Shown here: positions 3,331 to 27,700 of the stretch, piece after piece
Position numbering within the stretch: the stretch's first letter is position 1
Layout: each line of letters begins with the position of its first letter
Assembly: GCA_019454045.1 (NCBI GenBank)
Contig: SKCR01001887.1
Span: 52,778 to 116,777, forward strand
Length of the DNA stretch: 64,000 bases
DNA from: Zanthoxylum bungeanum
Taxonomy: Eukaryota; Streptophyta; Magnoliopsida; Sapindales; Rutaceae
Reading direction: 5' to 3'
Translations under genes and position numbers: made by a program
Notes under the pieces: model-generated
Seen by the model: only the letters and a program-made list of their open reading frames with translations
What the model was told of the DNA's origin: nothing
The model's database searches: none

Positions 3331-5968
3331 TTCCAAGATCCAATCTTCTTTCTCCTTGTTGAAATGTTGTAGGTAACTTTTAAAGGTTTTCTCACAAAAA
3401 CTTTACTTAGGCTAATAATTCTTTTAGCTTGTTTGCTTAGCTTTCTCAAGCTTAATTAAAAATTTGTTGAAGCTTGCATTTTATAGTGAAATTTATCCAA
3501 TTTTTAATTTATAAAAGTTCTAATCAACTTTTAGGACTTTTAGGTGGACTTAATCCGATTTGTCCAAATATGTATAATTAGGTGTGACTAACCACATTTG
3601 TCTACCAATTGATTTAATCCAATTAAATCTGGAAAAAATTTAACCAATTGATTAGTTCATTGTCTTCCACTTTAATTTAATCCAATTAAATCAAGCCAAA
3701 GACACATATTATTATGTATTTTGTAATTACCAAAATATCCTCCAATGGTAGAGATATTTATGATATTACAACAAAATCCTTGTTTGATTTTGGATTAATC
3801 CAATTAGGTCAAAGTAAATAATTAATGTTATCCAATAACACTTAATTATTTTAATTGATAATTATAATATCAAATATTATCTATTATCATATCGGCAACC
3901 CAAGTGTTCAACGAGTACATTACATATTGTGGGACTTTTTAAGTTCAGAATACACGAAGAACACGAATGACCTTTCTGAACTATACAAGTCGAGATCATC
4001 ACATATGTTTAACAATCCCTCCGTCATAGGCTATCAGAGTTGTGCTTAGAAAATATAGATTACATGTCAAGTTTCTTAGGCACATCTCATATTGTCGACA
4101 TGTCCATGAATTTTAAAACTTATCAGAACATCATTTCTGATATATGCGATCAACCCTAGGTGATCGGCTTTGGCCAAAGTCTTAAGAATCGTGACTTACT
4201 CACATGGATACCTAAACCCCTTATGGTACACATACGAGCCGACGAATCTTATCTTGATACACAGTTGATTAACGATTATATCAGTCCACACTCAACAAAT
4301 ATCTAGCGGTCGACCATGAAAGTGTTGGACAATTATAACCCACATCATCACTATTTGTAAAAGACATGGTGTTTTTGTACAAATTAACTATGTGACAAAG
4401 GAAATTGCTATTTTATCATTTTGTAATTGGATTACTTGGATATATAAATAATAAAAGTCCATATGGTTAAATCAGATTAATAAGATATGAGACAATATTA
4501 ATCCACGAAAGGTTTAATCATTAAATATCCTTAGTCGTAGTATTATCGAGACTGGACATCGATAATGCGGAATATGCTAGTATTAAACTTGTGCGCGTTA
4601 TGGAAGCTTAACAACATATTTCTCATATATTTAAGTATTGGATACTTATTGCAAGTGTGATAGGAGGTTATGTTTACCGATGGTACGGAAACAACTTCGC
4701 TCTGGATAGACCCATCGGAATCCCATTGGTAGTATGACTATGCGTCTATGGGAATCCGAATCAGGGTAGGTGTATTTGTCTTAACCTGAGACTTGCATCG
4801 CTAATACTTGTGACAATCAGTATACTTTGGTTTTGGTTGTCCGGGGCTTTAACAGGTTCTTTGTACGCCTCTTCTGGGTATACTGAGAATCGTAGTGTAT
4901 TGGGTGTGATGTCAAGATGGAAGTATCACTTCAGTCATATGGAGATGATGATTTTGTAGGGATACAAAACTGGTACTCTTAAATACTGCAGTCATCGGGA
5001 TAATATAACTAGGTCATGATTATCCGATTATAGAGACTAGTTGCTAGTGATCCCATATATGCTTCGTACGGGGCAGACACAATTTCAGCCATAGGCCTAG
5101 CATATGACATCCGATACTGGATCGTATTACGCAATACATTGTATACTATGCCTGATACAGATTATATATTCCTCGTTGAATATTTCTGGAGAATTGGGTA
5201 GGCATGGTGCTTTGCTAGAAGCCAACCATGTCTTGTAAATCGGTGAGAACGTGGTACATGGTACGCACGTGTTCGGATAGTCCGATGATCGTATTTACTG
5301 CCAACATATCCAGAGATCTCTTGGGTCGCTTCCCAAAGATTCACCAATGACATTTGACTCGAACATAATTAATCTGGGATTAATTATGAGAGAGAAAATT
5401 AATCTGGGATTAATTGCGGCAAGAATTTATCTGGGATTAAATTCGTCTAGAAGAGAGAATGTGATTAACTTGGAATTAATCGATTAAATAATATATCGGA
5501 TATATTAATTGAAATCGAATTTCATTACAGAATTAAAATTGGATTTTAATTCGGGTAAACGAATTAATTCGGAATTAATTCGTAAGCGACGTTCATAATA
5601 ATTTTGCTAGGCATTATTATTTAATTAAATTGGATTTAATTACGTCGCGACGGAAAATTCGTTTAATCGGATTAAATGAATCCAGGCCCAAAGTGTATTG
5701 TGTAAGCCAACTTAAATTTGGAATTTAAAATTGGGTGGGACCCACAACTCATATCACTTGTCAAATTGTGATGGTGGTAGTTGGAAAATATAAATTGGAC
5801 CCACAACTCATATCCTATAGTCAAAAGATCACACATATGCTAATCAACTCGAGGAGATTCTTATTGACGGTGGTGTGTACTTCCAACTATTAGGAATCAT
5901 CTGTGAGTCATTCAGTATTCTCTCCAATGAATACCCACATGTCTATACAAGCTTCCTTTACTCATGGT
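3330..5968 (-). mobile_element. Inverted, interrupted copy of the same copia LTR
   Basis: Read on the minus strand this matches the LTR at 654-3124 in two blocks. Bases about 3890-4330 are the reverse complement of its 1250-1680 region (GTGGGACT..., TATCTTGATACAC, GTCCACACTCAAC). Bases about 5800-5968 are the reverse complement of its 1030-1190 region (CAACTCGAGGAGATT, GAGTCATTCAGT). About 3330-3880 fits the LTR's 1750-2350 part loosely. The copy is broken by an unrelated segment (4330-5790) and its outer end is lost where the next plus-oriented LTR starts. Confidence 0.5.
4330..5790. mobile_element. Insertion inside the inverted LTR, LTR-like, family unknown
   Basis: This 1.4-kb block splits the alignment of the inverted copia LTR, so it was inserted later. 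It has no long ORF. It carries four near-copies of a TTAATCTGGGATTAATT palindromic motif between 5368 and 5481, as seen in some LTRs. An ACCCACAACTCATATC segment occurs twice near the right junction (about 5747 and 5800). No protein or primer-binding site identifies the family. Confidence 0.35.
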
Positions 5969-7984: not shown

Positions 7985-8067
7985 ACTGTAACACCCTGTC
8001 ACCTCGGCATGATTCCGACAATTATTTTCTCCATGAGTGATGTATTATGTATAATAAAATCTCATAT
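7985..8067 (+). mobile_element. Short LTR fragment shared with 33420-33530 (inverted)
   Basis: The segment containing GTAACACC, CACCTCGGC, ATGAGTGATGTATTATG and AATCTCATATGA is the reverse complement of 33420-33520. It looks like a scrap of a gypsy-type LTR. It joins directly to gag codons at about 8068, so it marks the 5' truncation of the outer element. Confidence 0.45.
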
Positions 8068-8461
8068 GAAGAAGCAATGAGACTGTGAGTTTTTCCTTAT
8101 TCTTTGAAAGACAGAGCAAAAGCTTGGCTACATTCACTACCAACAGGTTCCATCACAATTTGGAACACTCTAGCCACCAATTCTTTGCAAAGTACTTTCC
8201 ACTAGCCAGAACAGCAAAGTTGAGGAATGACATCACATCCTTCGTGCAGCAAGATTCAGAATCCCTCTGCGAAGCTTGGGAAAGATTCAAAGATTTGCTC
8301 TGGAAATGTCCTCACCATGAGATTCCAAAGTGGCTTCAAGTCCAAACTTTCTATAATGGACTTTTTGGACTAATAAGAACCACAATTGATGTTGCTTCTA
8401 GAGGAGCTTTGATGGCAAAATGAGAAGATCAAGCCTGAGACTTAATCGAAGAAATGACTAA
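8068..8461 (+). pseudogene. gag fragment of the outer (older) gypsy element, left part
   Basis: Encodes a piece of the Retrotrans_gag domain, with the motifs PYSLKDRAKAWLHSLP and then, after a frameshift near 8180, FVQQDSESL and FYNGLFG. It aligns with 10780-11185 of the inner element. A TGA follows the MRL motif near 8085 and another stop lies near 8421. The coding sequence is cut at 8461 by the inner element's 5' LTR and resumes at 18091. It is therefore the target gene of the nested insertion. It is non-functional. Confidence 0.8.
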
Positions 8462-10296
8462 TGATGAGTGGTAAAACTATCACTATTTCCCACTCAATTA
8501 ACTTAATATTTTGTATAGTTTCTTGAGTTTTGTGAATATTTTGATGTGTTTTGTGTTATTTTGTAGATAAATAAAGTTTAAGGACATTCTGGAGGTGATT
8601 TGGAGCAAAACTATGAAATTTGGCAAAAAAAGGTATTTTGGTAATTTTGGGCGTCTCGACACCGAAACCCTTGGCATCCCGACCTCTAACGTGCACCGGA
8701 GACTGCTAAAATGCGCCAGGTCAACACGTCAAAGTTGCCAAGTTTGACTTTGCTAACGTGCACCATGCCACGTGTCATCATCACAAGCAATCTGCTAACG
8801 TGCACAGCATGCCACGTGTCAAAAATTCAACGAGCCGTTTTTTTTTAGCCACCATGCCACATGTCGAAAATTCAGCGATCCAAAAAAAATTAATAAAAAA
8901 AAAATCAGAAAAATAATAATAAAGAATTGGATTTTCTTGCCTATAAATTGAGTTTGATTTCTTAAGTTTCAAATGTACCTCATCCTCTGAAATCCTTATA
9001 AATAAATTGAGAGTTCTCTTCTTTAGTTTCTTTTATTCAGTTTTATTTACGTTTGTAGTAGTAATTCTCTTCTATAAATAGTAGTTTTCATTCATCCATG
9101 AGGGGGTAACTTCTCTATGCTGAGGTAATAAGGTAATTCTTTTACTTTTGCTTTTTAGATTAATCTCCCTTAAAATATAATATATAAACTATTTAAAACC
9201 TGAATTAATAAAAAGATACCGCCATTCTAGGTCGGTTGGTTATTCAATTTAAACTGGTTAAACCTCACTTAATGAGGATACCGCCATTCTAGGTCGGTTG
9301 ATTTAATTTAGTTCCGCCTTATGGCTGGTTTATTTTTCTGTTCCGCCTTATGGCTGGTATATTTGAATTTGACTTAATCAGGATACCGCCATTCCGGACG
9401 GTTGGTTTAAAATATTACAAGTATATATATTATTATTTTATGGGAGATATCTAAATAGTATATAGTAGAAGTATTTCCTTTTACCTTAGCATTTCATTTC
9501 TTTTTATTGCAATTCATTATTCTACAATTACTTTTCAGCAATTTCATTTTATGTCTTTTAAGTTTTTATCATCTTAGGTATGTGTTGTAACTAAGTTAAA
9601 TATCTAGGGTTGTGATAAAATCTAATATCACCGGTTTAAAAAGGGTTAGATTATAGTTTGGGTAATTAAAAGATTTATTTATTGAGTCATAATCTTAAAG
9701 CTTTTTATTAACTGGCCACTAATAAAATTGATTAGGTAAACTTAAATAAACTAGACATAGGGATTTTAAGTTTAAAAACCTTAAGACTCAATAGCCCACG
9801 ATCTTCTTTAATGATAGATAAACCTTTAATAGATTTCCTTACAGGATATGAATATACCTGTTTGGCGGGAATAATCATAATTGGAATTCAAACTTAATGA
9901 ATCTAGGTAATTTGGTTGACATAGACATATGATTCAATTGAATTAAACTAGGTATTTGTAAATGACCATCGGAAGAGGCTTTTACATAATTTAATATTCC
10001 AGATTAATAAATCAATATTTACCCAACTATGATTTAACTACTTCATCTTTTAATTAATATTGGAAGAATTCACAACCCTAAATAGTTTTTAATTCTCATT
10101 AATCTACTCTCAATTTCTTTTACTTGTTTTAAATTTAGAATCATCGTCATTTCAAAATAATAAACTTTAGATATTAGTAATAACTTGACCTCATAAAATT
10201 AATAGAATAGGTAATAAGTCCTCGTGGGATCGATACTTTTTATACTACTTGAACGATACGTGCGCTTGCGTTATACGCGTATGATTACGCCGGTCA
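8462..10296 (+). repeat. 5' LTR of the LOG-carrying element
   Basis: 1835 bp, TG...CA ends, nearly identical to 16252-18090. Two TATA-like sites lie at about 8941 (CCTATAAATTG) and 8996 (CTTATAAATAAA). Upstream, between 8749 and 8870, three near-copies of GTGCACCATGCCACGTGTC supply CACGTG and CACATG cores. The 3' half holds three ATACCGCCATTC..GGTCGGTTG-type repeats and two TTCCGCCTTATGGCTGG units (9226-9410). Confidence 0.88.
8749..8868 (+). promoter_or_regulatory. Repeated G-box/ABRE-like motifs upstream of the LTR TATA
   Basis: GCCACGTGTC occurs twice (about 8767-8776 and 8811-8820) and GCCACATGTC once (about 8856-8865). GCTAACGTGCAC precedes the first two. CACGTGTC matches the plant ABRE/G-box core bound by bZIP and bHLH factors. 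The set is repeated in the 3' LTR at about 16539-16660. A regulatory role is inferred from motif type and its position 75-180 bp before a TATA-like site. Confidence 0.45.
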
Positions 10297-10302
10297 AGTT
10301 TT

Positions 10303-10320
10303 TGGCGCCGTTGCCGGGGA
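10303..10320 (+). other. Primer-binding site, tRNA-Asp type
   Basis: TGGCGCCGTTGCCGGGGA lies six bases after the LTR end. It is complementary to the 3' end of plant tRNA-Asp (ending CCCCGGCAACGGCGCCA). This is the usual minus-strand primer site of Athila/Tat-type gypsy elements and fixes the element's orientation. Confidence 0.85.
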
Positions 10321-10428: not shown

Positions 10429-11870
10429 ATGAGACGAACCAGAAGCTTTGAACTACGACCGCTTGACCCAGAAATTGAAAGAACCATCAGACAGTTGAGA
10501 AGGCAAATGAGACAAGGCCAAGAAGCAGTTGTTAACATGGAACCTGACCCTTTGGAGAATGCACCACCAATTCCCATTCGAGACAGAACCATTCCGGTGG
10601 TAGATGGCCTCACTTCATGTATTGTACTTCCTCATTTACCAGCGAATGCAGGTGACATCAAAACTTGCATTCAGATGATTCAGCAATCAGTGCAATTTTG
10701 GGGAAAAGCAACTGAAGATCTTAATACCCACATCAGCAACTTCCTGGAAGTTTGCGGCACTTTCAATTACAATCGAGAAGCTGAAGAAGCAATGAGACTA
10801 CGTGTTTTTCCATACTCATTGAAGGACAGAGCTAAATCTTGGCTACATTCACTTCCAGCTGGTTCTATCACCACTTGGAACGCTTTAGCCACCAAATTTC
10901 TTGCAAAATACTTTCCACCAGCCAGAACTGGAAAGTTGAGGAATGACATCACATCCTTTGTACAACAAGAATCAGAAACTCTCTACGAAGCTTGAGAAAG
11001 GTATAAAAATTTGCTCCGGAAATGTCATCACCATGAGATTCCAAAATGGCTTCAAGTCCAAACATTTTATAATGGACTTTCTGGAATAATGAGAACCACA
11101 ATTGATGCTGCTGCTGGAGGAGCATTGATGGCAAAAGGAGAAGAACAAGCCTGGGACCTAATCGAAGAAATGGCCAACAACAATTCATTGTGGCCAACAA
11201 AAAGGAGCATGATTCAATGAATTGCTGGAATTTATGAAGTTGGAGCCAATACAGCAGTCAGAGCCAAACTGGATCAGATATGCAAATTCATGGAGACTCT
11301 CGGCATGCAAAGCAACATTGGATCCACAAATTCGCCATATGGAGGAGCAAAAGAACAAAATCAACATGAAGAAACGGTGAATTATGTCAACAATTTCAAC
11401 AGACAGGAGAATAATCCATATTCCAACACCTACAATCCAGGGTGGAGGAATCATCCCAATTTCTCATGGAGCAACAATTCAGGGCAAAAGAACTATCCAC
11501 CACCAAGATTCCAACAGCAAAATGAGGAGTTTGAAAAAGATCCAGAAATGAAAGATTGGCTTGCAGAGATGTTAAAAAGCAACAAGCAGCAAATGATGCT
11601 ATGTTTCAAAGCCAATCTGCTTCCATCAAAGCACTGGAGAATCAAATTGAACAACTAGACAATGCTCAGAGTTACAGACCACCAGGAAATCTTCCCAGCA
11701 ATACAGAACCAAATCCAAGGAACCAAGGGAATGAGCAATGTCAAGCTATCACTTTGAAAAGTGGTACTGAAATCAACAAAGATGTTGGAATCAAAGCAAC
11801 CATTGAAGATGTTCCAAAAGAAGCAGAGAAACAGATGGAGGAGAAAGAAACAGATGAAAAAAAAAGCTAA
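10429..11870 (+). pseudogene. gag of the LOG-carrying element (broken)
   Basis: The first ATG (10429) opens a gag protein with a Retrotrans_gag domain (motifs RVFPYSLKDRAKSWLHSLP, FLAKYFPPARTGKLRNDI). It is followed by the asparagine-rich YVNNFNRQ..NPYSNTYNPGWRNHPNFSW block typical of plant Athila-like gag. No classic CCHC knuckle is seen. The frame is broken by TGA at 10993-10995, TGA at 11218-11220, a frameshift between about 11530 and 11650 and another at the A9 run 11857-11865. These defects are not all shared with the outer copy, so they arose after the copies diverged. The product would assemble particles if intact; here it cannot be made whole. Confidence 0.82.
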
Positions 11871-11871
11871 G

Positions 11872-12611
11872 GGAAAAGAACAGATCACTCCACCTCCACA
11901 TTTTCCTCAGTGTCTTCAGAAAAGCAAATTGGACAAGCAGTTTGCTCGATTCTTGGAGGTTTTCAAAAAGCTGCACATCAACATCCCTTTTGCAGAAGCT
12001 TTGGAACAAATGCCTAGCTATACTAAATTCATGAAAGATATTCTTTCACGAAAACGGAGATTGGGAGATTATGAGACAGTAGCATTATCAGAAGAATGCA
12101 GCGCCATCATTCAGAGAAAACTTCCCCCAAATTGAAGGATCCTGGAAGTTTCACCATTCCTTACATCATTGGAGAACATAACTTCGATAAGGCTTTATGT
12201 GATTTAGGTGCAAGTGTTAATTTAATGCCTTTTTCTATTTTCAGGAAACTGCAGATTGGAGAAACAATGCCCACCTCAGTCTCTCTACAACTTGCTGATA
12301 GAATGCTCGTATTTCCAAAAGGCGTTGTTGAGAATGTGTTGTTTAAGGTTGACAAATTCATTTTCCCAGCATATTTTATTGCCCTTGATATGGAGGAAGA
12401 CGTAGACGTGCCAGTCATCATCGGGAGACCATTCTTGGCTACAGGTCGAACCATTATTGATGTACAAAAAGGAGAATTAACCATGAGGGTACATGACCAA
12501 GAAGTAACATTCAATGTTTCCAAGGCCATGAATTTCCCAGATGAAAAGAAGGAGGAATGTTTCAGACTTGATGTGATACATAGTACCATTCAGAACTTCA
12601 ATGCAATGTAA
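11872..12611 (+). pseudogene. gag-pro linker and retroviral-type aspartic protease
   Basis: After a linker (KLDKQFARFLEVFKKLHINI, a conserved block before plant gypsy proteases), a one-base frameshift near 12125 leads into the protease. It has the catalytic triplet context CDLGASVNLMP at about 12198-12230 and the flap/hydrophobic-Gly motif [10 protein letters not shown] at about 12418-12447. The stop is at 12609-12611. Plant gypsy proteases often have DLGA in place of DTGA/DSGA. The domain itself is complete, but it is detached in frame from gag. Confidence 0.78.
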
Positions 12612-12693
12612 AGTTCTACTGACAAACTTAAAACATGTCAATTGTCTGTGGAGCCTGAAGATAAAGCGTCTTTTGTACTGAAAGAGCTAATTC

Positions 12694-13062
12694 TTGCACT
12701 ACAAGCAACAGAAGAGAAAGAGATCCACCAGCTCAACGAATTGGAGGAATTTCACAAACAGCCTTTTGAGGATGCCAAATTGTACAAAGAAAAGACATGA
12801 TGATAAATTAGTGCGCATACAACTGGAACCAGGGCAGAATGTACTGTTAAACAAATCAAGGGTAAAATTCTTCCGTTGGAAGCCAAAATCACGGTGGTCA
12901 GGTCCATTTTTGATCACCATGGTTTTACCAGATAGAGCCGTTGAGATATATGATCCTGACTCCAACAAAACTTTCAAGGTTAAAAACATGCGTGTTAAGC
13001 ACTATTTGGGAGAACCGTTGGAGCGACAAAAAGAAAGTGTCACACTTTCAGATTCAGCATAA
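12694..13062 (+). pseudogene. Integrase C-terminal tail fused after protease (pol core deleted)
   Basis: Codes for the last part of a gypsy integrase: YKEKT..HDDKLVRIQ, then LLNKSRVKFF, RWSGPFLITMV and NKTFKVKNMRVKHYLGE, ending in TAA at 13060-13062. RT, RNase H and the D,D-35-E core, which would occupy over 3 kb, are absent. In the outer copy the same junction is in frame (19440-20027), so the deletion is ancestral to both copies. The upstream part here (12612-12700) has stops and frame changes. Confidence 0.75.
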
Positions 13063-13079
13063 CGTTCAAGAAGTCACGT

Positions 13080-13128
13080 CTAGCTGACGACATTAAACTT
13101 AGCGCTCGCAGGGAGGCAACCCATGCAA
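13080..13128 (+). other. Conserved post-pol motif (AAACTTAGCGCT..GGGAGGCAACCC)
   Basis: Directly after the integrase tail stop. The same motif with drift recurs at 20043-20085, 42840-42880 and 46725-46755, each just downstream of pol remnants of different elements. I know similar AGCGCT...GGGAGGCAACCCA strings from the 3' end of Athila-type pol regions. Function unknown. Confidence 0.6.
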
Positions 13129-13200
13129 TTTTTGTATATATTGCAATTTGGTATGATTTAATTTTATGTGTTTAGTTTTTACAGATTAAGACATTTCAAG

Positions 13201-13740
13201 ATGGAAGAAGCTCTCGCAAATCTTCACAAGCAATTTCTTTCTCTCCCTAAAAAATCTCTGATGAAAGTTTACAAAGCTCGCTTGGAACGGATGAGGTTAC
13301 TGATGATAAAAGGTATTCCTACTGACATTCGTTGGATTATTGAAGCACGGGTCAGATTGGCAGGTGAGTCTTCTGACTCTTTTAGTTCACATCTGTCTGG
13401 TTTTGGAAGAAGCACCTATGCAAAGAAACGTAGAGCTAAACAAATGGGTGTTTGTTACAAATGTGCACGTTGGAATTCCAATACTCGTTGTCATTATTTA
13501 GGAATGGTGTCTGATAATCGTGAAGATAAAATTAAATTCATTAGGGATGGCTTGAGTAAGGAGTCTGTAGATGATATATCTTCGACTCTTGAGACGCATC
13601 CCAGTGGATATGTTCATATAGCCATTCACAGTTACACACACAATTCCAAAAAGAAGACAACAGTTAAGTATTGGGAATCTGACTCAAAAAGACCCTGTTT
13701 GCCAATTTATAAGAAAATTGGATGGGAAGCTTGTTCCTGA
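13201..13740 (+). CDS. ORF-X: unrecognised accessory protein of the element family
   Basis: An open frame of 179 codons from ATG 13201 with no internal stop. The protein is basic. It starts MEEALANLHKQF, has a KVYKARLERMRLLMIKG helix-like segment and an arginine/lysine-rich GRSTYAKKRRAKQMG patch. Next come CYKCAR and a cysteine some ten residues on (possible small metal site), then FIRDGLSKESVDDIS and THPSGYV. A copy at 20165-20677 aligns over almost the full length, mostly with substitutions, so the frame has been kept between copies while gag and pro decayed. A TTTTTACAG acceptor-like string sits just before the ATG. I do not recognise the family; it could be a captured host sequence or an element-specific protein such as a nucleic-acid-binding factor. 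Confidence 0.6.
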   Translation: MEEALANLHKQFLSLPKKSLMKVYKARLERMRLLMIKGIPTDIRWIIEARVRLAGESSDSFSSHLSGFGRSTYAKKRRAKQMGVCYKCARWNSNTRCHYLGMVSDNREDKIKFIRDGLSKESVDDISSTLETHPSGYVHIAIHSYTHNSKKKTTVKYWESDSKRPCLPIYKKIGWEACS

Positions 13741-13992
13741 CGCATAGATGTCAATCAAGTTGTAAATTCTTGCAAATATTATATCTCTTTGTCTTTTTCC
13801 TAATAATTGTGATTTTTTTTTGTTTTCTTTATTTTCTCCGACAGAATCCAGACCTTTTTGACTATCACGATTTATTTTACTATTTTGCTACTAATCGTCC
13901 TTTGGAAGATACTTGTGCTATTTTTACTCACCCTTTTCAGGTACTATAAATTCAACTTATCATTGTACTTTTGAAGACATCCAGAGTAAAAC
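13741..13992 (+). other. Intron-like segment and possible small exon before LOG
   Basis: After ORF-X comes a T-rich tract ending TTTTCTCCGACAG (about 13840-13850), which looks like a splice acceptor. An open stretch of about 95 bases follows, ending TTTTCAG just before GTACTA near 13941-13942, like a splice donor. The outer copy matches only up to TTCTCCGACA (20812) and then diverges. No transcript evidence is available; splicing is a reading of consensus signals only. Confidence 0.35.
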
Positions 13993-14646
13993 ATGGAAGC
14001 CACTTCAAGAAGACGAGTTGAAAATATCTGTGTGTTTTGCGGTAGTAGTGTTGGTATTAAACCACAATACGTAGAAGCAGCACAAGAATTGGGTCGAGTC
14101 TTAGCTGCAATAAATATACACTTAGTATATGGCGGAGGCAATCTTGGACTAATGGGGATGGTTTCAAAGGCCGTACAGGAAGGAGGCAATCATGTTTTGG
14201 GAATCATCCCAAAACCCTTGGCGGAAGAAAATCTTATTGAACCATCAAACGGAGAGGAACTAATCGTCCCAGGTATGTCTGAACGACTGGTAGAAATGAT
14301 TAATCGTTCTGATGCTTTTATTGCTTTGCCAGGTGGCTTGGGTACATTGGAGGAAATTTTTATAGTATTATCTTAGGCGAACCTGAACATACACCAGAAA
14401 CCAATTGGACTGCTCAACGTTGATGGATTTTATGATTTTCTTTGTGTGTTTCTTGATGATGCCCGGAGAAATGGGTTCGTGTCAAAACCTATGAAAGAAC
14501 TCCTTTTTACTGCCAGGTCTGCTCCAGATCTAATAGACCAACTCATAGCCTATGAACCACAAGTTGACCCTATCCTTTCAAAGATAAATTGGTCTGAGGA
14601 CGATCGTGGTAAGATGCGTCAAATAAATCTGGATCTTAACCTTTAA
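13993..14646 (+). pseudogene. LOG-like: Captured LONELY GUY-type cytokinin riboside 5'-monophosphate phosphoribohydrolase
   Basis: LOG enzymes release active cytokinin base from its riboside 5'-monophosphate in the cytosol and nucleus. This frame has 217 codons, the usual LOG length. It shows ICVFCGSS near residue 12, the nucleotide-binding YGGGNLGLMG (46-55), VLGIIP (68-73), an Arg at 98 in MSERL, and the family signature PGGLGTLEE (113-121) with its catalytic Glu. Plant LOGs usually have Arg-Lys at 98-99; here it is Arg-Leu. Codon 128 is TAG where the family has Trp, and the frame then continues intact (NIHQKPIGLLNVDGF...) to TAA. It ends LDLNL. Plant LOG genes normally have several introns; none are present here, so it was probably captured as cDNA. 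It lies inside an LTR element on the same strand as gag. Written as a pseudogene because of the stop, but otherwise well preserved. Confidence 0.85.
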
Positions 14647-15418
14647 TTTTCTTGTAGTAATTCAGCTAACCATGTACTATCTTCTAAACTCTTCTTCTAC
14701 TGTTTAAGACATTGGGGACAATGTCTCATTTAGGTTTGGGGGTGAGGAATAATTAATAGTATCTTATTTTTATTGTATTTTTATTTTTAGTCCAAAATTT
14801 TTCGAAAAATTAAAAAACAATCAGCAAAAACAAAGGCATATTTAAAGCTAGGTGATGGTTTGGTGTCTTCCTTCACTCACTACCTCTCTATAAGGAAAAG
14901 TTGTGAAGGCACCTAGATAATCATTCACCAGTAGCTTGTTATGATAGACTAGTTTGGAGGACTCGTTGTTTATTCCTGTCACCAAGCGATAAGAGCCTAA
15001 GAGGCTTGAGTACTTAAGTGAGCCTCGCTCCACCCTCCCTCTAGGGAATCTACAACGGGAATTCCATTCGACAGTTAGTCACACACCATGACCAGTAAAA
15101 ATTATTTCTTTATGGTTTTGTTTTTATGTTGACTAAAAAGGTGAAATTGGTAAGAAATAGCTGTGTAAGGAATTCTCACTCCTGATACGTATTTCAAAAC
15201 CCATTTTTTCGAAACAAGTTAATTTTTGTTTATTTACTTTTGAATTATTTAATTTGCAAATTCTCCATAAAACTGACTAAAAATAGATCTTCATATACTT
15301 AGTTGGCAGATATTATCAACATACATGGTAACATACGGACATAGAATAAAATTGAAAAGATTGTAATATTCAGTGCTATAGTTTAATTGAAGAAGCATCT
15401 CAAAAAGTGATGGAATAA

Positions 15419-15454
<36 letters not shown>

Positions 15455-15690
15455 TGAAATCCGAGTTATTAAGTCTGTAAGGGTATTTTAATACCTAGTG
15501 CCCTAAAACCAACTGGTTTGGGAGTCATTGGCCCAAAGCTCGTTACATGGATAAAAAATGATGAAAAAAAAAAATATATATATATATGAAGTCTGAGTAA
15601 TTAAGTCTGTAGGGGTGTCTTAACACCTGGTGCCTTAAAGCCATCTGGTTTGGGAGCCACTGACCTAAAGCTCGCTACATAGATGGAAGG
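15455..15690 (+). repeat. Duplicated 105-bp block in the 3' UTR
   Basis: Two copies of the series AATTAAGTCTGTA, GTGCCYTAAARCCA, CTGGTTTGGGAG, CTAAAGCTCG, TACATRGAT separated by an AT-rich spacer. The copies differ at many sites, so the duplication is old. Confidence 0.6.
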
Positions 15691-16064
15691 TATTGTATAT
15701 GAATAAAAAATAGAAAAAAAATCAAAGAAAAAAAAAATCAGAAAAATCAGAAAATTTATTCCATTACTACAAAAGATGTGAACTTTGATAAAACTTTAGG
15801 ACAAAAATATTACTCTCTTATCAACTGCACTTATGACTGTTGTGGGAAAAAATGAGTTGAATAAAACTTTGTTAGCTGTGTATATGAAGAATGATAAAAA
15901 TAATCGGATAATTTACTTATTCAGTAATTTAGAATGAAACAAAACAACTAGTAAACTTGGAGTAGAAGTTTCACCTAAAATAGTCACTAACTTCTTTATT
16001 CTCTTTTCTATTGTCTTTTTGCTTTTGTGTGCATTAGTTTCACTACCATTTTACTTTTGTAAAA

Positions 16065-16190
16065 TGTTGTGGGTATCATTGCTGTAAACCCTCACGAGAC
16101 TATAACTCGTCCACTAGGGACACCTAGGGGTTTAAAGGCTTATTGCATATGCTAAATGCAATCGTGATCCCTACGAAAGTGGCTTAGTTA
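16065..16190 (+). other. Conserved 3' module upstream of the polypurine tract, copy 1
   Basis: Contains TGGGTATCATTGCTGTAAAC, CACGAGACTATAACT, GGGGTTTAAAGGCTT, GCTAAATGCAATCGTGATCC and CTACGAAAGTGGC. It recurs at 43960-44075 and about 47800-47915 in elements whose LTRs are clearly different. Confidence 0.6.
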
Positions 16191-16235
16191 AATTTTTATT
16201 ATGTTATTTTATTTTGCTCGAGGACTAGCAAAATG

Positions 16236-16251
16236 TTAGGTTTGGGGGGTG
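16236..16251 (+). other. Polypurine tract of the LOG element
   Basis: TTAGGTTTGGGGGGTG abuts the 3' LTR, where plus-strand DNA synthesis of LTR elements is primed. Confidence 0.75.
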
Positions 16252-18090
16252 TGATGAGTGGTAAAACTATCACTATTTCCCACTCATTTAACTTAATATT
16301 TTGTATAGTTTCTTGAGTTTTGTGAATATTTTGATGTGTTTTGTGTTATTTTGTAGATAAATAAAGTTTCAGGACATTCTGGAGGTGATTTGGAGCAAAA
16401 CTGTGAAATTTGGCAAAAAGGGTATTTTGGTAATTTTGGGCATCTCGACACCGAAACCCTTGGCATCCCGACCTCTAACGTGCACCGGAGACTGCTAAAA
16501 TGCGCCAGGTCAACAAGTCAAAGTTGCCAAGTTTGACTTTGCTAACGTGCACCATGCCACGTGTCATCATCACAAGCAATCTGCTAACGTGCACCGCATG
16601 CCACGTGTCAAAAATTCAACGAGCCGTTTTTTTTTTAGCCACCATGCCACATGTCGAAAATTCAGCGATCCAAAAAAAATTAATAAAAAAAAAAATCAGA
16701 AAAATAATAATAAAGAATTGGATTTTCTTGCCTATAAATTGAGTTTGATTTCTTAAGTTTCAAATGTACCTCATCCTCTGAAATCCTTATAAATAAATTG
16801 AGAGTTCTCTTCTTTAGTTTCTTTTATTCAGTTTTATTTACGTTTGTAGTAGTAATTCTCTTCTATAAATAGTAGTTTTCATTCATCCATGAGGGGTAAC
16901 TTCTCTATGATGAGGTAATAAGGTAATTCTTTTACTTTTGCTTTTTAGATTAATCTCCCTTAAAATATAATATATAAATTATTTAAAACCTGAATTAATA
17001 AAAAGATACCGCCATTCTAGGTCGGTTGGTTATTCAATTAAAACTGGTTAAACCTGACTTAATGAGGATACCGCCATTCTAGGTCGGTTGATTTAATTTA
17101 GTTCCGCCTTATGGCTGGTTTATTTTCTGTTCCGCCTTATGGCTGGTATATTTGAATTTGACTTAATCAGGATACCGCCATTCCGGACGGTTGGTTTAAA
17201 ATATCACAAGTATATATATTAAATATTTTATGGGAGATATCTAAATAGTATATAGTAGAAGTTATTTCCTTTTACCTTAGCATTTCATTTCTTTTTATTG
17301 CAATTCATTATTCTATAATTATTTTTCAGGAATTTCATTTTATGTCTTTTAAGTTTTTATCAGCTTTAGCTATGTGTTGTAACTAAGTTAAATATCTAGG
17401 GTTGTGATAAAATCTAATATCACGGTTTTAAAAAGGGTTAGATTATAGTTTGGGTAATTAAAAGATTTATTTATTGAGTCATAATCTTAAAGCTTCTTAT
17501 TAACTGGCCACTAATAAAATTGATTAGGTAAACTTAAAATAAACTAGACATAGGGATTTTAAGTTTAAAAACATTAAGACTCAATAGCCCACGATCTTCT
17601 TTAAGGATAGATAAACCTTTAATAGATTTCCTTACAGGATAGGAATATACTTGTTGGGCGGGGGTAATCATAATTGGAATTCAAACTTAATGAATCTAGG
17701 TAATTTGGTTGACATAGACATATGATTCAATTGAATTAAACTAGGTATTTGTAAATAACCATCGGAAGGGCTTTTACATAATTTAATATTCCAGATTAAT
17801 AAATCAATATTTACGCAACTATGATTTAACTACTTCATCTTTTAATTAATATTGGAAGAATTCACAACCCTAGATAGTTTTTAATTCTCATTAATCTACT
17901 CTCAATTTCTTTTACTTGTTTTAAATTTAGAATCATCGTCATTTCAAAATAATAAACTTGTTTGATATTAGTAATAACTTGACCTCATAAAATTAATATA
18001 ATAGGTAATAAGTCCTCGTGGGATCGATACTTTTTATACTACTTGAACGATACGTGTGCTTGCGTTATACGCGTGTGATTACGCCGGTCA
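16252..18090 (+). repeat. 3' LTR of the LOG-carrying element
   Basis: 1839 bp, near-identical partner of 8462-10296 with scattered substitutions and small indels (for example CTCATTTAAC for CTCAATTAAC near the start). Followed by GCTAA, the right target duplication, and then by the resumed gag of the outer element. Confidence 0.88.
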
Positions 18091-20027
18091 GCTAACAATA
18101 ATTCCTTGTGCCAACATAAAGAAACATGATCCAGAGAATTGCAGGAATATATGAAGTTGGAGCCAACTCAGCAGTGAATACTAAGGTGGATCAGATGTGC
18201 AAATACCTGGAAACACTCAGCGCACAAGTTGTAAACATTGCCGAAACCACAAGTTCACCATATAGAGGAACACCAAAGCCAAACCAACATAAAGAAATTG
18301 TGAATTACGTCAACAATTTCAACAGACAGGGGAACAATCCATATTCCAACACCTACAACTCAGGGTGGAGGAATCATCCCAATTTCGTATGGAGCAACAA
18401 TTCAGGGCAAATGAACAACCCACCACCCTGATTCCAACAGCATAACAAAGGCCAGGAGCAGGCAAATGAATCAAGAATAACAGAAGTGCTGACCCACTTG
18501 AAAAATATAGAAGCAAAACACGACTCTCAAGCAGCTAGATATGATGCTATGTTTTAATCCCAAGCAGCATTAATTCAAAGTCAATCTTCTTCCATTAAAG
18601 CACTGGAAAATCAAATTGGACAACTGGCCAATGCTCAGAGTTACAGACCGCCATGTAACCTTCCTAGCAACACTGAACCAAATCCAAGAAACATATGGAA
18701 TGAGCAATGTCATGCCATCATGTTAAAGAGCGGTACTGAAATCAACAAAGATATTGGAGTCAAGGCAACTGTTGAGGAAGTTCCAAAAGAAAGTAGCGAA
18801 ACAGTTCCACAGATGAAGGAAAAAGAAGCAAAGGAAAAAGATCAAGAAATAATCACTATACCTCCACCTATTCCACAGCGTCTCCAGAATAATAAACTAG
18901 ACAAGCAGTTTTCTCGATTCTTGGAGATCTTCAAAAAGTTGCATATCAACATTCCATTTGCAAAAGCGTTGGAACAAATGCCCAGCTATGTCAAATTCAT
19001 GAAAGACATTCTTTCACGAAAACGGAGATTGAGGGATTACGAGACAGTAGCATTATCAGAAGAATACAACGCCAACATTCAGAGGAAGCTTCCCCCAAAG
19101 TTGAAAGATCCTGGCAGTTTCATTGTTCCTTGCACCATATGAGAACATGACTTCGGTAAGGCTTTGTGTGATTTAGGTGCAAGTGTTAACTTGATGCCTT
19201 TTTCTATTTACAGGAAACTGTAGATTGGAGAAACAATGCCCACCTCAGTCTCTCTACAACTTGCTGATAAAACACTCGTATTTCCGAGAGGTGTAGTTGA
19301 AGATGTGCCGGTCAAAGTTGATAAATTCATTTTCCCAGCAGATTTTATTGTCCTTGATATGGAGGAAGACGAAGACATGCCGATCATCCTCGGGAGACCA
19401 TTCTTGGCTACAGGTCGAACCATTATTGATGTACAAAAATGAGAACTAACCATGAGGGTACATGACCAAGAAGTAACATTCAATGTTTTTAAAGCCATGA
19501 ATTTCCCGAATGACGAGAAGAAGGAATGTTTCAGACTTGATGTGATACATAGTACCACCCAGAACTCCAATGTAATGCAAAGTTCTACTGACAAACTATC
19601 TGTGAAGCCTGAAGATAAAGCGTACTGCGTACTGAAGAAGCCTATTCTTGCACTACAAGCAACAAAAGATAAATAGTTCCACCAGCTCAATGAATTTGAG
19701 GAATTTCACATACAGCCTTTTGAGAATGCTAAACAGTACAAAGAAAAGGCCAAGAAGAGACATGATGAAAAGTTAGTGCGCATACAACTAGAACCAGGGC
19801 ATAAGGTACAATTAAACAAATCAAGGTTGAAACTCTTCCCATGGAAGCCAAAATCATGGTGGTCAGGTCCATTCCTAATCACCAAGGTTTTACCAGATAG
19901 AGCCGTTGAGTTACATGATCCCGACTCCAACAAAACATTCAAGGTTAAAAACAAACGTGTCAAGCACTACTGGGGAGAATCAATTGAACGACAAAAAGAA
20001 AATGTCGCATTTTTAGATCCAGCCTAA
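18091..20027 (+). pseudogene. Outer element gag-protease-integrase tail, right part
   Basis: Continues the gag interrupted at 8461. One single reading frame runs from about 18096 to TAA at 20025-20027 with six internal stops (near 18429, 18555, 19139, 19220, 19440, 19674) but no evident frameshift. Motifs are MIQRIAGIYEVGAN, YVNNFNRQ..NPYSNTYNSGW, KLDKQFSRFLEIFKKLHINI, CDLGASVNLMP (protease), [10 protein letters not shown] and MRVHDQEVTFNV. These run straight into the integrase tail (KRHDEKLVRIQLEPGH, WWSGPFLITKV, KVKNKRVKHYWGE). The RT-RNase H-integrase core is missing at the same place as in the inner element. Confidence 0.82.
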
Positions 20028-20042
20028 CATTCGGGTAGTCAT

Positions 20043-20085
20043 GTCTAGCTGACAACTTTTACTTAGTGCTAGCAGTGAGGCAACC
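20043..20085 (+). other. Conserved post-pol motif, outer copy
   Basis: GTCTAGCTGAC followed by TTAGTGCTAGCAGTGAGGCA and ACCC, the same block as 13080-13128, again just after the integrase tail stop. Confidence 0.55.
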
Positions 20086-20164
20086 CATGTAACTCATGTA
20101 TATATTATGATTTGGTGTGTTTTATTTGTGTGGGTTTCATTTGTGTAGGTAAAGTCATTTCAGG

Positions 20165-20677
20165 ATGGAAGAAGTTCTCGCAAATCTTCACAAGCAATTT
20201 CCTTCTCTCCCTCAAAACTCTCTAATGAAAGTCTACAAAGCTCGCTTGGAACGGATGAGACTATTGATGATCAAAGGTAATCTTAATGACATTCGTTGGA
20301 TAATTGATGCACGGGTCCGATTGGCAGGTGAGTCTTCTGACTCTTTTATTTCACATCTGCCTGGTTTAGGAAGAAGCACATATGCTAAAAAGAGAAGAGC
20401 CAAAAGAATATGTGTTTGTTATAAATGTGCTCGTATGTTTTATGATACTCGTTGTCGATCTTTAGGAATGGTGTCTGATAACCGCAAATATAAGATTAAT
20501 TTCATTAGGGATGGCTTGAGTAAGGAGTCTTTGGATGACATATCCAAAACTCTTGAGACGCATCCCAGTGGATATATATATCATGAATTTCGCATGTTAT
20601 ATACACAATTCCGAAAAGAAAGACAACAGTTAAGTCTCGGGAATCTGACTAAAAAGACCTTGTTTGCCAATTTATAA
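20165..20677 (+). CDS. ORF-X, outer copy
   Basis: An open frame of 170 codons from ATG 20165 without internal stops, aligned along nearly its whole length with 13201-13740. Shared motifs: KVYKARLERMRLLMIKG, RWII.ARVRLAGESSDSF, GRSTYAKKRRAK, VCYKCAR, LGMVSDNR, FIRDGLSKES, LETHPSGY. The C-terminal ends differ because of a small indel. That this frame is open while the adjacent gag-pro frame carries six stops is unusual for a dead element. Function unknown. Confidence 0.58.
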   Translation: MEEVLANLHKQFPSLPQNSLMKVYKARLERMRLLMIKGNLNDIRWIIDARVRLAGESSDSFISHLPGLGRSTYAKKRRAKRICVCYKCARMFYDTRCRSLGMVSDNRKYKINFIRDGLSKESLDDISKTLETHPSGYIYHEFRMLYTQFRKERQQLSLGNLTKKTLFANL

Positions 20678-20689
20678 GAAATTTGGATG

Positions 20690-21436
20690 GGAAGCTTGTC
20701 CCTGACGCATAGACGTCAATCAAGCCGCTACTTTTCTTGTAAATATTACATCTCTTTGTCTTTTCCTAATAATTGTGATTTGTTTTGTTGTTTTCATTTA
20801 TTTTCTCCGACATCTCGATGGCTCTGTCCGAGACACCATAGGAACAAAAATGAAGATCCTTGCAAGACAGATCAGAGTAAGCAAGGATGAGACCATACTA
20901 TCAGGCTTAGACATGGATCTAGTTCGCATGCTAAGCCGAATCAAGATGACATAAGAATATTTCATAGTAGACTCAAGATCTACGCAAAACCATAAAAATG
21001 GTACCCAAATTCTCAATGCAGATGAACACCCTTGGATCACGAATATCGTTCATTTATAGCTCGTAATTCCGAAATGACAAATCATATTACAATTATGTCT
21101 CTAACTCAAGCCACATTTCCCAAGTCATGTTTCTAGTTCACGATTTACAGACGTACGACGGGCCCATGGTCTTCAACTCGAGTCATGACTTCTAAGTCAC
21201 ATCGGACAAGCCTTATCATATAGACCATATCCGCTTACATCAAAACTTCAACTTATAAGAGTCGGCCGAGATATATCACTTTGCAGTTGGGAAGTAGTTG
21301 TAGTTCTTGACAACATTCGATCACTATGAGTCAGTTGGCAGTATTACAGGGCTAGGAAGTAGCATGATGACTCAAGTAAGTTTTTGAAAAACTACTTAAC
21401 TCTATGATATTTCATGTCTTTTTTAAATGATCAGCT
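20690..21436. other. End of outer element and unassigned DNA
   Basis: Up to 20812 this follows the inner element's post-ORF-X sequence, and then the match stops abruptly. An open stretch of about 50 codons (20813-20960) encodes nothing I recognise. From 20960 to 21436 I see no gene and no LTR end. No LOG sequence and no 3' LTR of the outer copy are present. Confidence 0.45.
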
Positions 21437-24471: not shown

Positions 24472-24639
24472 AAACATGGACCAAGAGTGTGGCATCCACA
24501 ATTTGAGGCTCTACCAGGAGACATGGAGAAACCAAAGCCTTCCGTAGTTGAAATGCCAAAGGTTGAACTGAAACTATTCCAGTGGGTCTTCAGCATGCGT
24601 TTCTGGGGCTATGAGACATCTTCCCTGTTATTATTTCAT

Positions 24640-26050
24640 CGGAGCTAAGTGCATCACAAAGTAAGAAATTAATTCACATGTTGGGTGAGCACAAATCTGT
24701 ACTTGGCTGGACCATATGAGACATTAAACGTAACTGTCCCTTAAATTGTTCCCATAGGATTCACCTAGAAGAATGAGTTGTTCCTCGTAGAGACCCTCAG
24801 AGTAGACTTAACCCTACTATGAAAGAAATGGTGAGAAATGAAGTTATAGAATTACTAGATGCGGGTATTATATACCTAATTGATGATAGTAAATGGGTTA
24901 GTCCTACGCAGGTTGTCCCTAAAAATTCAGGTGTTATCGTTGTGCAAAACGAGGCAGGGGAACTGGTTCCTACCAAGGTAGTCACGGGTTGGCGCATGTG
25001 GATAGATTATAGGAAGTTGAATGCTGCCACTCGAAAAGACCATTTCCTGTTTCCTTTTATTGACCAGATTCTCGAGCGGGTAGCAGGTCATCCATTCTAC
25101 TCTTTTGTAGATGGTTACTCAGGATACTATCAAATTGAGATTTCCTTAGAAGATCAAGAGAAAACCACATTCACCCCGTTTAGCTCTTATGCTTTTCACC
25201 GCATGCCATTTAGGTTATGTAATGCCCCTGCGACTTTTCAAAGATGCATGCTGAGCATTTTTAGCGACATGATTGAGAAATGCATGTAGGTGTTTATGGA
25301 TGACTTAACAGTGTTTGGCGATTCCTTTGATGTATTCTTACTTAATCTAAAAGCAGTGTTAAATTATTGTCAAGAAAAAGGCCTCGTTCTGAATTAGGAA
25401 AAGTGTCATTTCATGGTCTATTCGGGGATTGCTCTAGGTCATATTGTCTCTTCCAAAGGTATTGAAGTCGACAAATCAAAAATTGAGTTAATATCTAAAC
25501 TACCCATACCCAAAACTGTGAAAGATGTTCGATCTTTTCTTGGGCATGCTGGTTTCTATATGAGGTTTATACAAAAAATTTCTTCTATCTCTAGACCACT
25601 GTGTAACCTCCTTGTTAAAGATTCTTTGTTTGAATGGGCACAAGAATGTGAAGATGCCTTCAAAACGTTAGTCACTAAACTCACCTCTGCCACAATTATG
25701 CAACCATCTGACTGGAACTTGCAATTTGAAATTATGTGTGATGCTAGTGATTATGCAGTTGGGACATTTTTAGGACAAAGAAGAGAAAGGAAACCTTTCG
25801 TTGTCTATTATGTTAGCAGGACCTTAAATAATGCTCAAATGAACTATTCCACAACTGAAAAATAACTATTAGCTGTAGTTTTTGCTTTGGATAAATTTTG
25901 TGCATACCTTATCGGCTCACCCATCACTATTTTTAATGATCACGCACCTCTTAAGTATCTTCTTTCGAAGAAAGATGCTAAGGCAAGATTGATTAGGTGA
26001 ATCATGTTGTTGCAGGAATTCGATCTAACCATCAAAGATAAAAAAAAAGT
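24640..26050 (+). pseudogene. Gypsy reverse transcriptase and RNase H
   Basis: RT motifs in order: MVRNEVIELLDAGIIY, WRMWIDYRKLNAATRKDHF, FYSFVDGYSGYYQI, FRLCNAPATFQRCM and the catalytic VFMDDLTVFG (MDD at about 25296-25304). Then FLGHAGFYMRFI and RNase H motifs CDASDYAVGTFLGQ and SRTLNNAQMNYSTTEK. It is broken by stops at 25287-25289, 25395-25397, about 25863 and about 25999 and by a frameshift in the A-run at 26038-26048. Family: Athila/Tat-type Ty3/gypsy by close resemblance of these motifs. Confidence 0.85.
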
Positions 26051-26051
26051 G

Positions 26052-27289
26052 TTGAAAATGTGGTGGCAGATCACTTATCTTGCTTGGAGTTTAACGACTC
26101 TGCCAATGGCCCACCAATTCGTGATGATTTCCCTGATGAACATTTTTTTGTGGTCACTCGAGCACCATGGTTTGCACATATTGTCAATTATTTAGTCTCC
26201 AGTGAGTGTCCATCCATTTGGAGTGCACAAGACAAGCGTAAATTCCTTGTCGAGGTACATAATTTTTATTGGGATGATCCTTATCTATTTAAGTACTGTC
26301 CTGACCAAATACTGCGACGTTGCATTCCTGAAGATGAGGTTTTAAGTGTACTTATCTTTTGTCATTCCCATGCATGTGGAGACCATTTCTCAATAAAGAA
26401 AATTGTTGTAAAAATCTTACAATGTGGTTTTTATTGGCCCACTCTATTTAAAGATACAAATGGGTTATGCCGCTCTTGTGAAATGTGTCTAAAATTAGGT
26501 GCTCTATCACATCATCATATGATGCCTCTTAACCTTATTCTTGTCATTGAAGTATTTGATTGTTGGGGTATTGATTTTATGGGACATTTTCCACCTTCTT
26601 TTGGATACCTTTACATTCTTCTTGCAGTAGATTATGTGTCTAAATGGGTTGAGGCAGTGGCGTGCCGAGCAAATGATAACACTACAGTGGTTAAATTCTT
26701 AAAGGAAAATGTATTGTCACGCTTTGGTACTCCACGTGTCATTATTAGTGATCAATGGACACATTTTTGTAATCGATCATTTGAGGCCTTGATGCGCAGA
26801 TACTGTGTGGTGCATAAAATTTCTACTGCTTATCACCCCCAGACAAATGGCCAGACAGAGTTAGCAAATAGGGAGATAAAACATATATTGGAGAAAACAG
26901 TAAACCTCGACTGCAAGGGTTGGTCTTTATGCCTTCCGGATGCACTTTGGGCATACCATAATGCTTATAAATCCCCAATTGGGATGTCTTCTTACAGGCT
27001 TGTATTTGGAAAGGCTTACTATTTACCTGTTGAGTTAGAACATATAGCCTATTGGGCTATTAAAACTCTTAACTTTGATCTGAGTACTGCAGGTACACAA
27101 AGGAAGCTACAACTGACAGAACTTGAAGAATTACAGAATGATGCTTATGACAACTCCCGCCTCTACAAAGCAAAGATGAAAGCTGCCCATGACAAGCAGA
27201 TAATGAGGAAGAATTTTGAGCTCAACCAAAAGGTTTATCTCTATGATTCCTGTCTCTATCTTCACCTAGGCAAGTTGCGATCCCGATGA
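26052..27289 (+). pseudogene. Gypsy integrase, open frame over 400 codons
   Basis: Open from the poly-A frameshift to TGA at 27287-27289. It has an HHCC-like zinc-binding region (H104, H109, C140, C143 counting from 26060), catalytic Asp in GIDFMGHF (172), Asp in IISDQWTHF (231) and Glu in NGQTELANREI (267). The last two are separated by exactly 35 residues, as in the D,D-35-E signature. YHPQTNGQTE and LVFGKAYYLPVE are typical of plant gypsy integrases. The C-terminal domain continues in the same element (27290-27430, GPFIVKQVFPHGAFEVE) after the stop. Upstream frame damage means it cannot be made from a normal polyprotein. Confidence 0.83.
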
Positions 27290-27700
27290 ACTGGACCTTT
27301 CATTGTGAAGCAAGTCTTCCCCCATGGAGCTTTCGAAGTAGAAGATACCATGGATGACATAGTGTTCAAAGTTAATGGACATAGACTAAACCGTTCCTGG
27401 AAAATAAGATTCATGCAGCAGAGGATACCCATTTGGCTGACCCTACTTATGCGGATTGATATTTTTTTCCTTATTGTTGTACATTATTTATTTATGTCTT
27501 TATTTATTATCTAGTTATTTTTATTTTTTCTTCTTTCTTCATTTTGTTTTGTTTCGTTCATTATTTCTTTTACAGGATAACACAATATTTCATCCAGGGT
27601 CACGAACTCTCTAGGTAGGTGAACTTTTTCCTTGTCTTTTGTCTTTCTTGTTGTTACATTGAGGACAATGTTTCATTTAGGTTAGGGGGTGATATTATCG
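27290..27700 (+). other. Integrase tail, 3' untranslated part and internal purine tract
   Basis: Codons for PFIVKQVFPHGAFEVE and VNGHRLNRSW belong to the integrase tail. They are followed by T-rich sequence and ACATTGAGGACAATGTTTC..TTTAGGTTAGGGGGTG (27653-27691). That string also occurs at 14709-14745 of the LOG element. No LTR follows; the element is truncated at about 27700. Confidence 0.6.

Follow-up and report, generated by a model that had tools for sequence, protein, structure and literature searches.

LOG-type genes and a carlavirus-like companion in a high-copy Ty3/gypsy-type retrotransposon family of Zanthoxylum bungeanum

A LOG-type coding sequence lies inside an LTR element in the window, the 64-kb stretch of the Zanthoxylum bungeanum genome analyzed here, and the question raised by this locus is whether such a sequence is the passenger of one element or a gene in the service of an element family. 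We conclude that it is probably the 3'-most, selected gene of an established, high-copy Ty3/gypsy-type family, of which the window holds a young, non-autonomous, and decaying copy. The behavior of LOG is that of a functional gene of the element and not that of a chance passenger, presumably to the benefit of the element in one of the ways proposed below.

The element and its LOG frame

The LOG-type frame (positions 13993 to 14646, + strand) is enclosed by an LTR element with bounds at 8462 and 18090 and is located on the sense strand between a pol remnant, the integrase C-terminus, and the 3' LTR, as a sequence-only reading of this DNA had proposed. The 5' LTR (8462 to 10296, +; TG...CA) and the 3' LTR (16252 to 18090, +) are 97.4% identical and bound a single element, flanked by target-site copies ACTAA (8457 to 8461) and GCTAA (18091 to 18095) with four of five bases equal. 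A primer-binding-site-like stretch, TGGCGCCGTTGCCGGGGA (10303 to 10320, +), lies just 3' of the 5' LTR, and a PPT-like stretch, AGGTTTGGGGGG (16238 to 16249, +), lies within the 3' tail, both being recognized by reading; we take the former to fit the 3' end of a plant tRNA-Asp, and no tRNAs were found in the 64-kb window. The LTRs, target duplication, and primer site noted in the sequence-only reading are all present, and they are those of an LTR retrotransposon. Its label as Athila-like is our assumption, based on the 3' extra ORFs, the PBS type, and earlier literature. The LTRs differ by 37 substitutions over 1830 sites (K2P 0.0205, with the LTR ends set 1 to 2 bases off), giving an age of 0.8 to 4.1 My at assumed rates of 1.3e-8 to 2.5e-9.

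The interior begins with a gag region in which the frame is interrupted (10429 to 11870, +; identified from ORFs, with PF03732 at 4e-14 over 10429 to 10992) and a protease-region ORF (12096 to 12611, +), which is aspartic-protease-like by eye and has no match in a Pfam scan. An internal deletion junction follows (12611 to 12630, +), at which RT, RNase H, and the core of the integrase are absent, and a search of the element for RT and RNase H returned no match; an integrase C-terminal stub remains (12630 to 13053, +; tblastn with the integrase of contig L001, described below). Next are a splice-acceptor-like TTTTTACAG (13176 to 13184, +) positioned 16 nt 5' of the ATG of an NABP-like gene (ORF-X, 13201 to 13744, +), a second acceptor-like CTTTTCAGGT (13933 to 13942, +) 5' of LOG, the LOG frame itself, and an AT-rich 3' non-coding tail (14647 to 16251, +). 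The tail contains two 132-bp units in tandem (15442 to 15705, +), 77% identical to each other.

This element interrupts the gag of a related and older element, the left part of which is at 8067 to 8456 (+; 86.7% to inner positions 10782 to 11172) and the right part at 18091 to 20812 (+; 82% to inner positions 11173 to 13843). The outer element also codes for an NABP-like gene (20165 to 20709, +), out of frame near its end as well, and within the window no LOG is present 3' of it; similarity to the inner element stops at 20812, close to the inner LOG leader, and the outer element may be truncated there. An Rfam snoR71 match (8217 to 8323, -; 55.8 bits, gathering 40) is antisense within the outer gag, and the snoR71 model may respond to gag sequences of retrotransposons. 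Elsewhere in the window are a further Ty3/gypsy pol with RT, RNase H, and integrase (24576 to 27388, +; integrase 65% to that of L001), beside which neither NABP nor LOG was found within the window, and a repeat (4323 to 5627, -) with 82% identity to sequence 5' of LOG at another locus (L073).

The LOG frame carries the motifs GGGNLGLMG and PGGLGTLEE and has no intron, in agreement with the earlier description of a 217-codon, intronless coding sequence, but it is not intact: codon 128 (14374 to 14376) is TAG, so the open frame comprises 127 codons and a remainder. Pfam recognizes both pieces, the first 127 codons with PF03641 (8.2e-21) and PF18306 (2.2e-17) and the part after the stop with PF03641 (3.8e-8), so that the window copy has the family domain and PGGxGTxxE and lacks a full-length uninterrupted frame. 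A protein search gave 7934 matches among 8000 scored candidates, of which 120 relatives were listed; the best has 86% identity across the full 217 residues and the next listed are 84, 81, and 75% identical, with Xanthoceras and Populus LOGL10 proteins (about 54 to 58% identity) being named among the matches listed. An 86% relative over 217 residues, together with the recurrence of the frame at high copy in its own genome, is beyond chance. The best solved relatives are AtLOG3 (PDB 2a33, 6.2e-58) and AtLOG8 (1ydh, 2.9e-47), which by sequence are of the same fold family and have PGGxGTLEE in common with it. The element LOG differs from plant LONELY GUY genes in being intronless, borne on a repeat, in a separate clade, and terminated by an EAR-like LxLxL motif, here LDLNL (codons 213 to 217, 14629 to 14643, +; beyond the stop); canonical LOGs are not known to have such an end.

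The carlavirus-like companion and acceptor-like motifs

ORF-X, the family of which had been missed in the sequence-only reading, matches the Pfam families Carla_C4 (PF01623) and Viral_NABP (PF05515) at 6.6e-7 and 1.2e-5, both above gathering scores. At an E value of 0.01 or better it has 320 relatives, with Xanthoceras, Rhamnella, Acer, Orobanche, Populus, and Citrus named among the 120 listed, and of 60 relatives scanned, 55 contain PF05515 and 54 contain PF01623. These matches, in the window and in the relatives, rule out its reading as an unknown or env-like gene. The window gene is open to 13740 and is damaged, its homologous C-terminus being in a different frame (13649 to 13744); by alignment it also lacks one of the usual finger cysteines.

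Likeness to carlavirus CRP/NABP proteins extends from the PF05515 and PF01623 domains to the order of a basic stretch followed by a Cys-rich finger and the location of the gene at the 3' end. Finger spacing differs, being C-x2-C-x4-C-x3/4-C in the element family (116 of 119 regex matches) versus C-x2-C-x9-C-x4-C in potato virus H, and unlike the carlavirus CRP the element protein, at about 182 residues, has additional long helices and is retrotransposon-borne. Its AlphaFold model is poor (pLDDT 65, pTM 0.29); a viral fold search with this model gave as its best match the RNA silencing suppressor of fig latent virus 1, which is not significant (E 0.89), a search of solved structures for NABP relatives found none (best E 0.42), and of 36 pattern stretches in viral contigs, none was confirmed as an NABP relative. 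The potato virus H CRP is a local silencing suppressor (PMC3689765), and by analogy the element NABP might suppress silencing too.

NABP can exist apart from LOG, as contig L001 (DAIEQH010000041.1) has an integrase followed by NABP and next by a PPT-like stretch, and no LOG was found on it. This contig is filed as a Candidatus Nomurabacteria MAG, in which the plant retrotransposon integrase and NABP represent plant contamination.

Each of the two 3' genes is preceded by an acceptor-like motif. TTT[TC][AG]CAG occurs no more than 30 nt 5' of the NABP ATG in 29 of 29 copies, against 46 of 5925 30-nt windows of element interior, and all 31 copies have TTT[TC]AGGT no more than 90 nt 5' of LOG, against 83 of 5865 90-nt windows; both sets of copies include that in the window. 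This is as expected if each 3' gene were expressed from a spliced RNA. Between the acceptor-like sites is a short exon-like stretch, NPDLFDYHDLFYYFATNRPLEDTCAIFTHPFQ (13846 to 13940, +), which in part matches the N-terminal extension of one protein relative (P0009; MADTSAIITHPFQ...) as well as other copies, and which may be a third coding piece.

LOG copies and selection within the genome

LOG is a high-copy repeat in its own genome. A search of the 3.96-Gb assembly (51709 contigs) with a LOG relative (P0001) as query identified at least 150 places, each at least 88% identical and covering 216 to 217 of 217 residues, and LOG is stop-free in 122 of the 150 scored (a hand count from the table). 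AtLOG3 as query also gave at least 150 places, all of them single frames with 49 to 52% identity, and as the two sets overlap at 7 places (counted by eye), there are at least about 293 distinct places. First-look candidates (70292 with P0001 and 57829 with AtLOG3, and also 3279) were counted loosely and do not give the copy number. The further copies called for in the sequence-only reading thus exist in number, many of them element-borne, and the possibility that LOG is unique to this locus is ruled out by these places and by the presence of LOG in copies selected on the tail, described below.

In the 30 loci ranked highest by LOG protein score with P0001 (L002 to L031), the element tail is present 3' of LOG in all 30, NABP is 5' of LOG in 29 (one partial), the integrase C-terminus is present in 27, and an LTR start falls inside the fetched flank in 23. 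A match unbroken across 12561 to 12800, the region of the deletion junction, is seen in 14 of these 30, in 3 of 12 further loci (L066 to L077), and in the outer element; in 12 of the 30, the match starts no earlier than about 12630. At one of these 12, L003 (L062), LOG is 3' of a gag-protease-RT-RNase H-integrase run, the integrase of which is interrupted by some 2 kb of other sequence. At L063 the run from gag to integrase is complete, but it is separated by an LTR from the integrase end leading to L005. Of the loci ranked with AtLOG3, 8 of 12 lack NABP by tblastn but have LOG and tail; several of these by eye retain NABP fragments and a gag-like upstream frame. NABP is therefore not required by every family member, and more than one non-autonomous type has kept LOG, among loci that, being picked for LOG, limit how far this extends.

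The enclosed, repeated organization also bears on whether these LOGs are host genes that had a retrotransposon inserted around or beside them, as the annotation of Populus LOGL10 and of Citrus copies as ordinary genes might suggest. The order integrase-NABP-LOG-tail-LTR recurs, however, at scattered places in the 51709 contigs, the LTRs and flanking duplication enclose the LOG frame in the window, and LOG is single-exon at every place scored with P0001 and AtLOG3, so that a host-gene origin of this kind is hardly credible. Among the best 150 places with full-length AtLOG3 there were no intron-bearing host LOG genes, only element-type single frames.

A sample blind to LOG was obtained by ranking 30 loci on 304 bp of tail DNA, the window being one of them. 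An LTR start is present in 28 and a LOG match in 26, three of the latter being just 69 to 72% identical, with no LOG match at 4 loci; besides the window, an uninterrupted 651-bp LOG frame is present in 6 of 29. Twelve in-frame copies, including that in the window, were compared in a site-class test from which indel and partial-LOG copies were dropped. Sites variable in at least two copies number 26, 9, and 43 at codon positions 1, 2, and 3 (chi-square p 1.5e-5), whereas private sites number 50, 50, and 54 (p 0.90), and for positions 2 versus 3 the shared and private classes differ with a Fisher p of 2e-4. Shared sites avoid position 2 and private sites do not, and LOG has thus been under purifying selection while the family moved; the private changes are the expected post-insertion decay, and the shared ones are older than insertion and reflect constraint. 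The tail-ranked sample has a pairwise dN/dS of 0.38 and L002 to L031 one of 0.18, the latter being biased low because those loci were ranked by LOG protein score. For NABP, dN/dS is 0.31 (250 pairs), with values of 0.20 to 0.45, varying with method, between the inner and outer elements, and the shared-site bias is not significant (21, 21, and 36; p 0.056).

These data weigh most directly on the simplest rival, that LOG is a neutral passenger, picked up by chance by one element and kept by descent only. Plant LTR elements are known to transduce genes (PMC7264820), and a passenger would fit the codon 128 stop in the window, the stops or indels in many LOG copies, and the 4 of 30 tail-ranked loci that have no LOG match. 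It is disfavored by the site-class test, in which shared but not private LOG sites are strongly biased to synonymous-rich positions, by the retention of LOG in non-autonomous members from which RT, RNase H, and the integrase core have gone, and by LOG-bearing element gene models in Citrus and Rhamnella, and we regard it as quite improbable. LOG as a selected gene of the family accommodates a broken window copy as one that is decaying after insertion.

LOG elements in other plants and the role of the 3' genes

Both PF01623 and a LOG domain are present in 9 of 120 proteins listed with a Citrus NABP-LOG gene model as query, eight from Citrus x changshan-huyou and one from Rhamnella, and in gene models P0292 and P0259, integrase sequence, NABP, and LOG are read as one model. 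Two pairs of NABP and LOG matches have equal longest contigs (8723 and 4511), which suggests that the two genes are linked in those pairs. In a LOG tree, the window, Citrus, Populus, and Malvaceae forms constitute one clade (98/93), with AtLOG3, AtLOG8, and Xanthoceras outside it (two plant outgroups). Because element LOGs of several plants share a clade, the capture of LOG looks old on phylogenetic grounds and would not belong to the recent past of this genome. The tree proposed in the sequence-only reading as a way to the donor gene recovered a single element-type clade across plants, and the AtLOG3 search did not isolate intron-bearing donors; capture through a spliced RNA, also proposed there, is a plausible, putative route.

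LOG cargo is not new. Steinbauerova et al. in 2011 reportedly described two Athila-like elements with LOGL4-like extra ORFs. YgdH/LOG domains are in print for Gypsy consensuses of Citrus sinensis and C. clementina and, without a filter, of Populus trichocarpa (Alvarado-Marchena et al. 2022, PMC9289625, in which the 2011 work is cited), so the earlier impression that this kind of element lacked a description does not hold: those elements likewise have LOG-type sequence inside a plant Ty3/gypsy element. In the Citrus gene models examined, LOG is 3' of pol as in the window. The element here has NABP, whereas a carlavirus-type companion has no occurrence in the text of PMC9289625, which also has no mention of selection on LOG, of the LxLxL tail, or of catalytic-motif loss in Citrus, and the copy abundance reported here is for Z. 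bungeanum, a genome other than those treated there. Likewise, searches of open-licence papers gave no account of a carlavirus-type companion, or of selection or the LxLxL tail in these LOGs. As an observation the sequence-only reading was therefore partly right, having misjudged the integrity and novelty of the gene. A partial parallel is provided by Gypsy elements of Phalaenopsis, which carry an AlkB-type RNA demethylase and are orchid-specific in the survey of PMC9289625; there too, a single Gypsy lineage has fixed an additional gene of RNA biology, one that flexiviruses also have, but it is a different gene.

The LOG relatives differ in how they keep the tail and the enzyme motif. An exact LxLxL end is present in 84 of the 120 listed LOG relatives, and a basic pair no more than six residues before the end is found in 82 of 120; some relatives and Xanthoceras forms have no such tail. 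PGGxGT[LFM]E[ED] is kept in 104 of the 120, and the terminal Glu of PGGxGTxxE is tied to catalysis. PGGxGT is found in 0 of 68 Citrus-type LOG-like proteins, where a PGD-type replacement occurs in 32, in most of which the last Glu is lost, and an LxLxL-type end is present in 23 of the 32 PGD-type proteins, these counts being rough as annotated gene models may be chopped.

The prevalence of the tail and nearby basic pair, together with the Citrus proteins in which PGGxGT is replaced and an LxLxL-type end persists, raises the alternative that the LOG product is a scaffold and does not release cytokinin, its fold, basic stretch, and LxLxL serving to recruit TOPLESS-type corepressors or to tether the integration complex. 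The enzyme motif is nevertheless also kept outside Citrus, in those 104 listed relatives and in copies from the same genome (28 of 31 by motif match, window included), and LxLxL is short, its corepressor binding putative, and the tail absent in the forms noted above. A purely structural role is thus rather unlikely for the family, and LOG as a selected element gene, whichever activity it has, is the reading that we carry forward.

From these features we infer the following course. Long ago, an ancestor of the family would have taken up a LOG free of introns, either with a carlavirus-type NABP or after it, to give a layout of gag-protease-[RT-RNase H-integrase]-NABP-LOG-tail, and LOG would from then on have been subject to selection as a gene of the element. 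The copy in the window lacks the integrase core as well as RT and RNase H, has kept NABP and LOG, and would since have been decaying, with a stop in LOG and a frameshift in NABP. LTR-driven RNA may be spliced to the acceptors directly 5' of each 3' gene; NABP could bind RNA and dampen host silencing like carlaviral CRPs, and the LOG protein could free active cytokinin, or its LxLxL tail could act on TOPLESS-type corepressors, such that the cell would be kept dividing or less defended during element copying. More broadly, and only tentatively, these may be members of a retrotransposon lineage that in several plant orders has a two-gene 3' module directed at defense and cell state, made up of a silencing suppressor of the kind found in plant RNA viruses and a LOG-derived protein with a corepressor-binding tail, with LOG repurposed in Citrus (the enzyme motif gone and the tail kept) and multiplied to very high copy in Z. 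bungeanum, and a suppressor gene exchanged with carlaviruses; we hold this as a possibility, at less than even likelihood.

The origin and use of the extra genes of plant retrotransposons are mostly unknown, and here one of them, a hormone enzyme, has been maintained by selection in a family of mobile elements. In open-licence papers we have not found the high copy number of LOG in its own genome, its carlavirus-type companion and the recurrence of this pair in Citrus and Rhamnella, purifying selection on LOG, or the LxLxL tail, including its presence in Citrus forms without the enzyme motif. Viral members of the companion's family block RNA silencing, a defense that also restrains transposons, and if the NABP-like protein does so as well, it would represent an anti-silencing factor of retrotransposons whose kinship to viruses can be identified. 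Genes annotated as "LOG" in Citrus, Populus, and similar genomes may in many cases belong to elements, and if so, they would distort counts of the LOG family and studies of the hormone.
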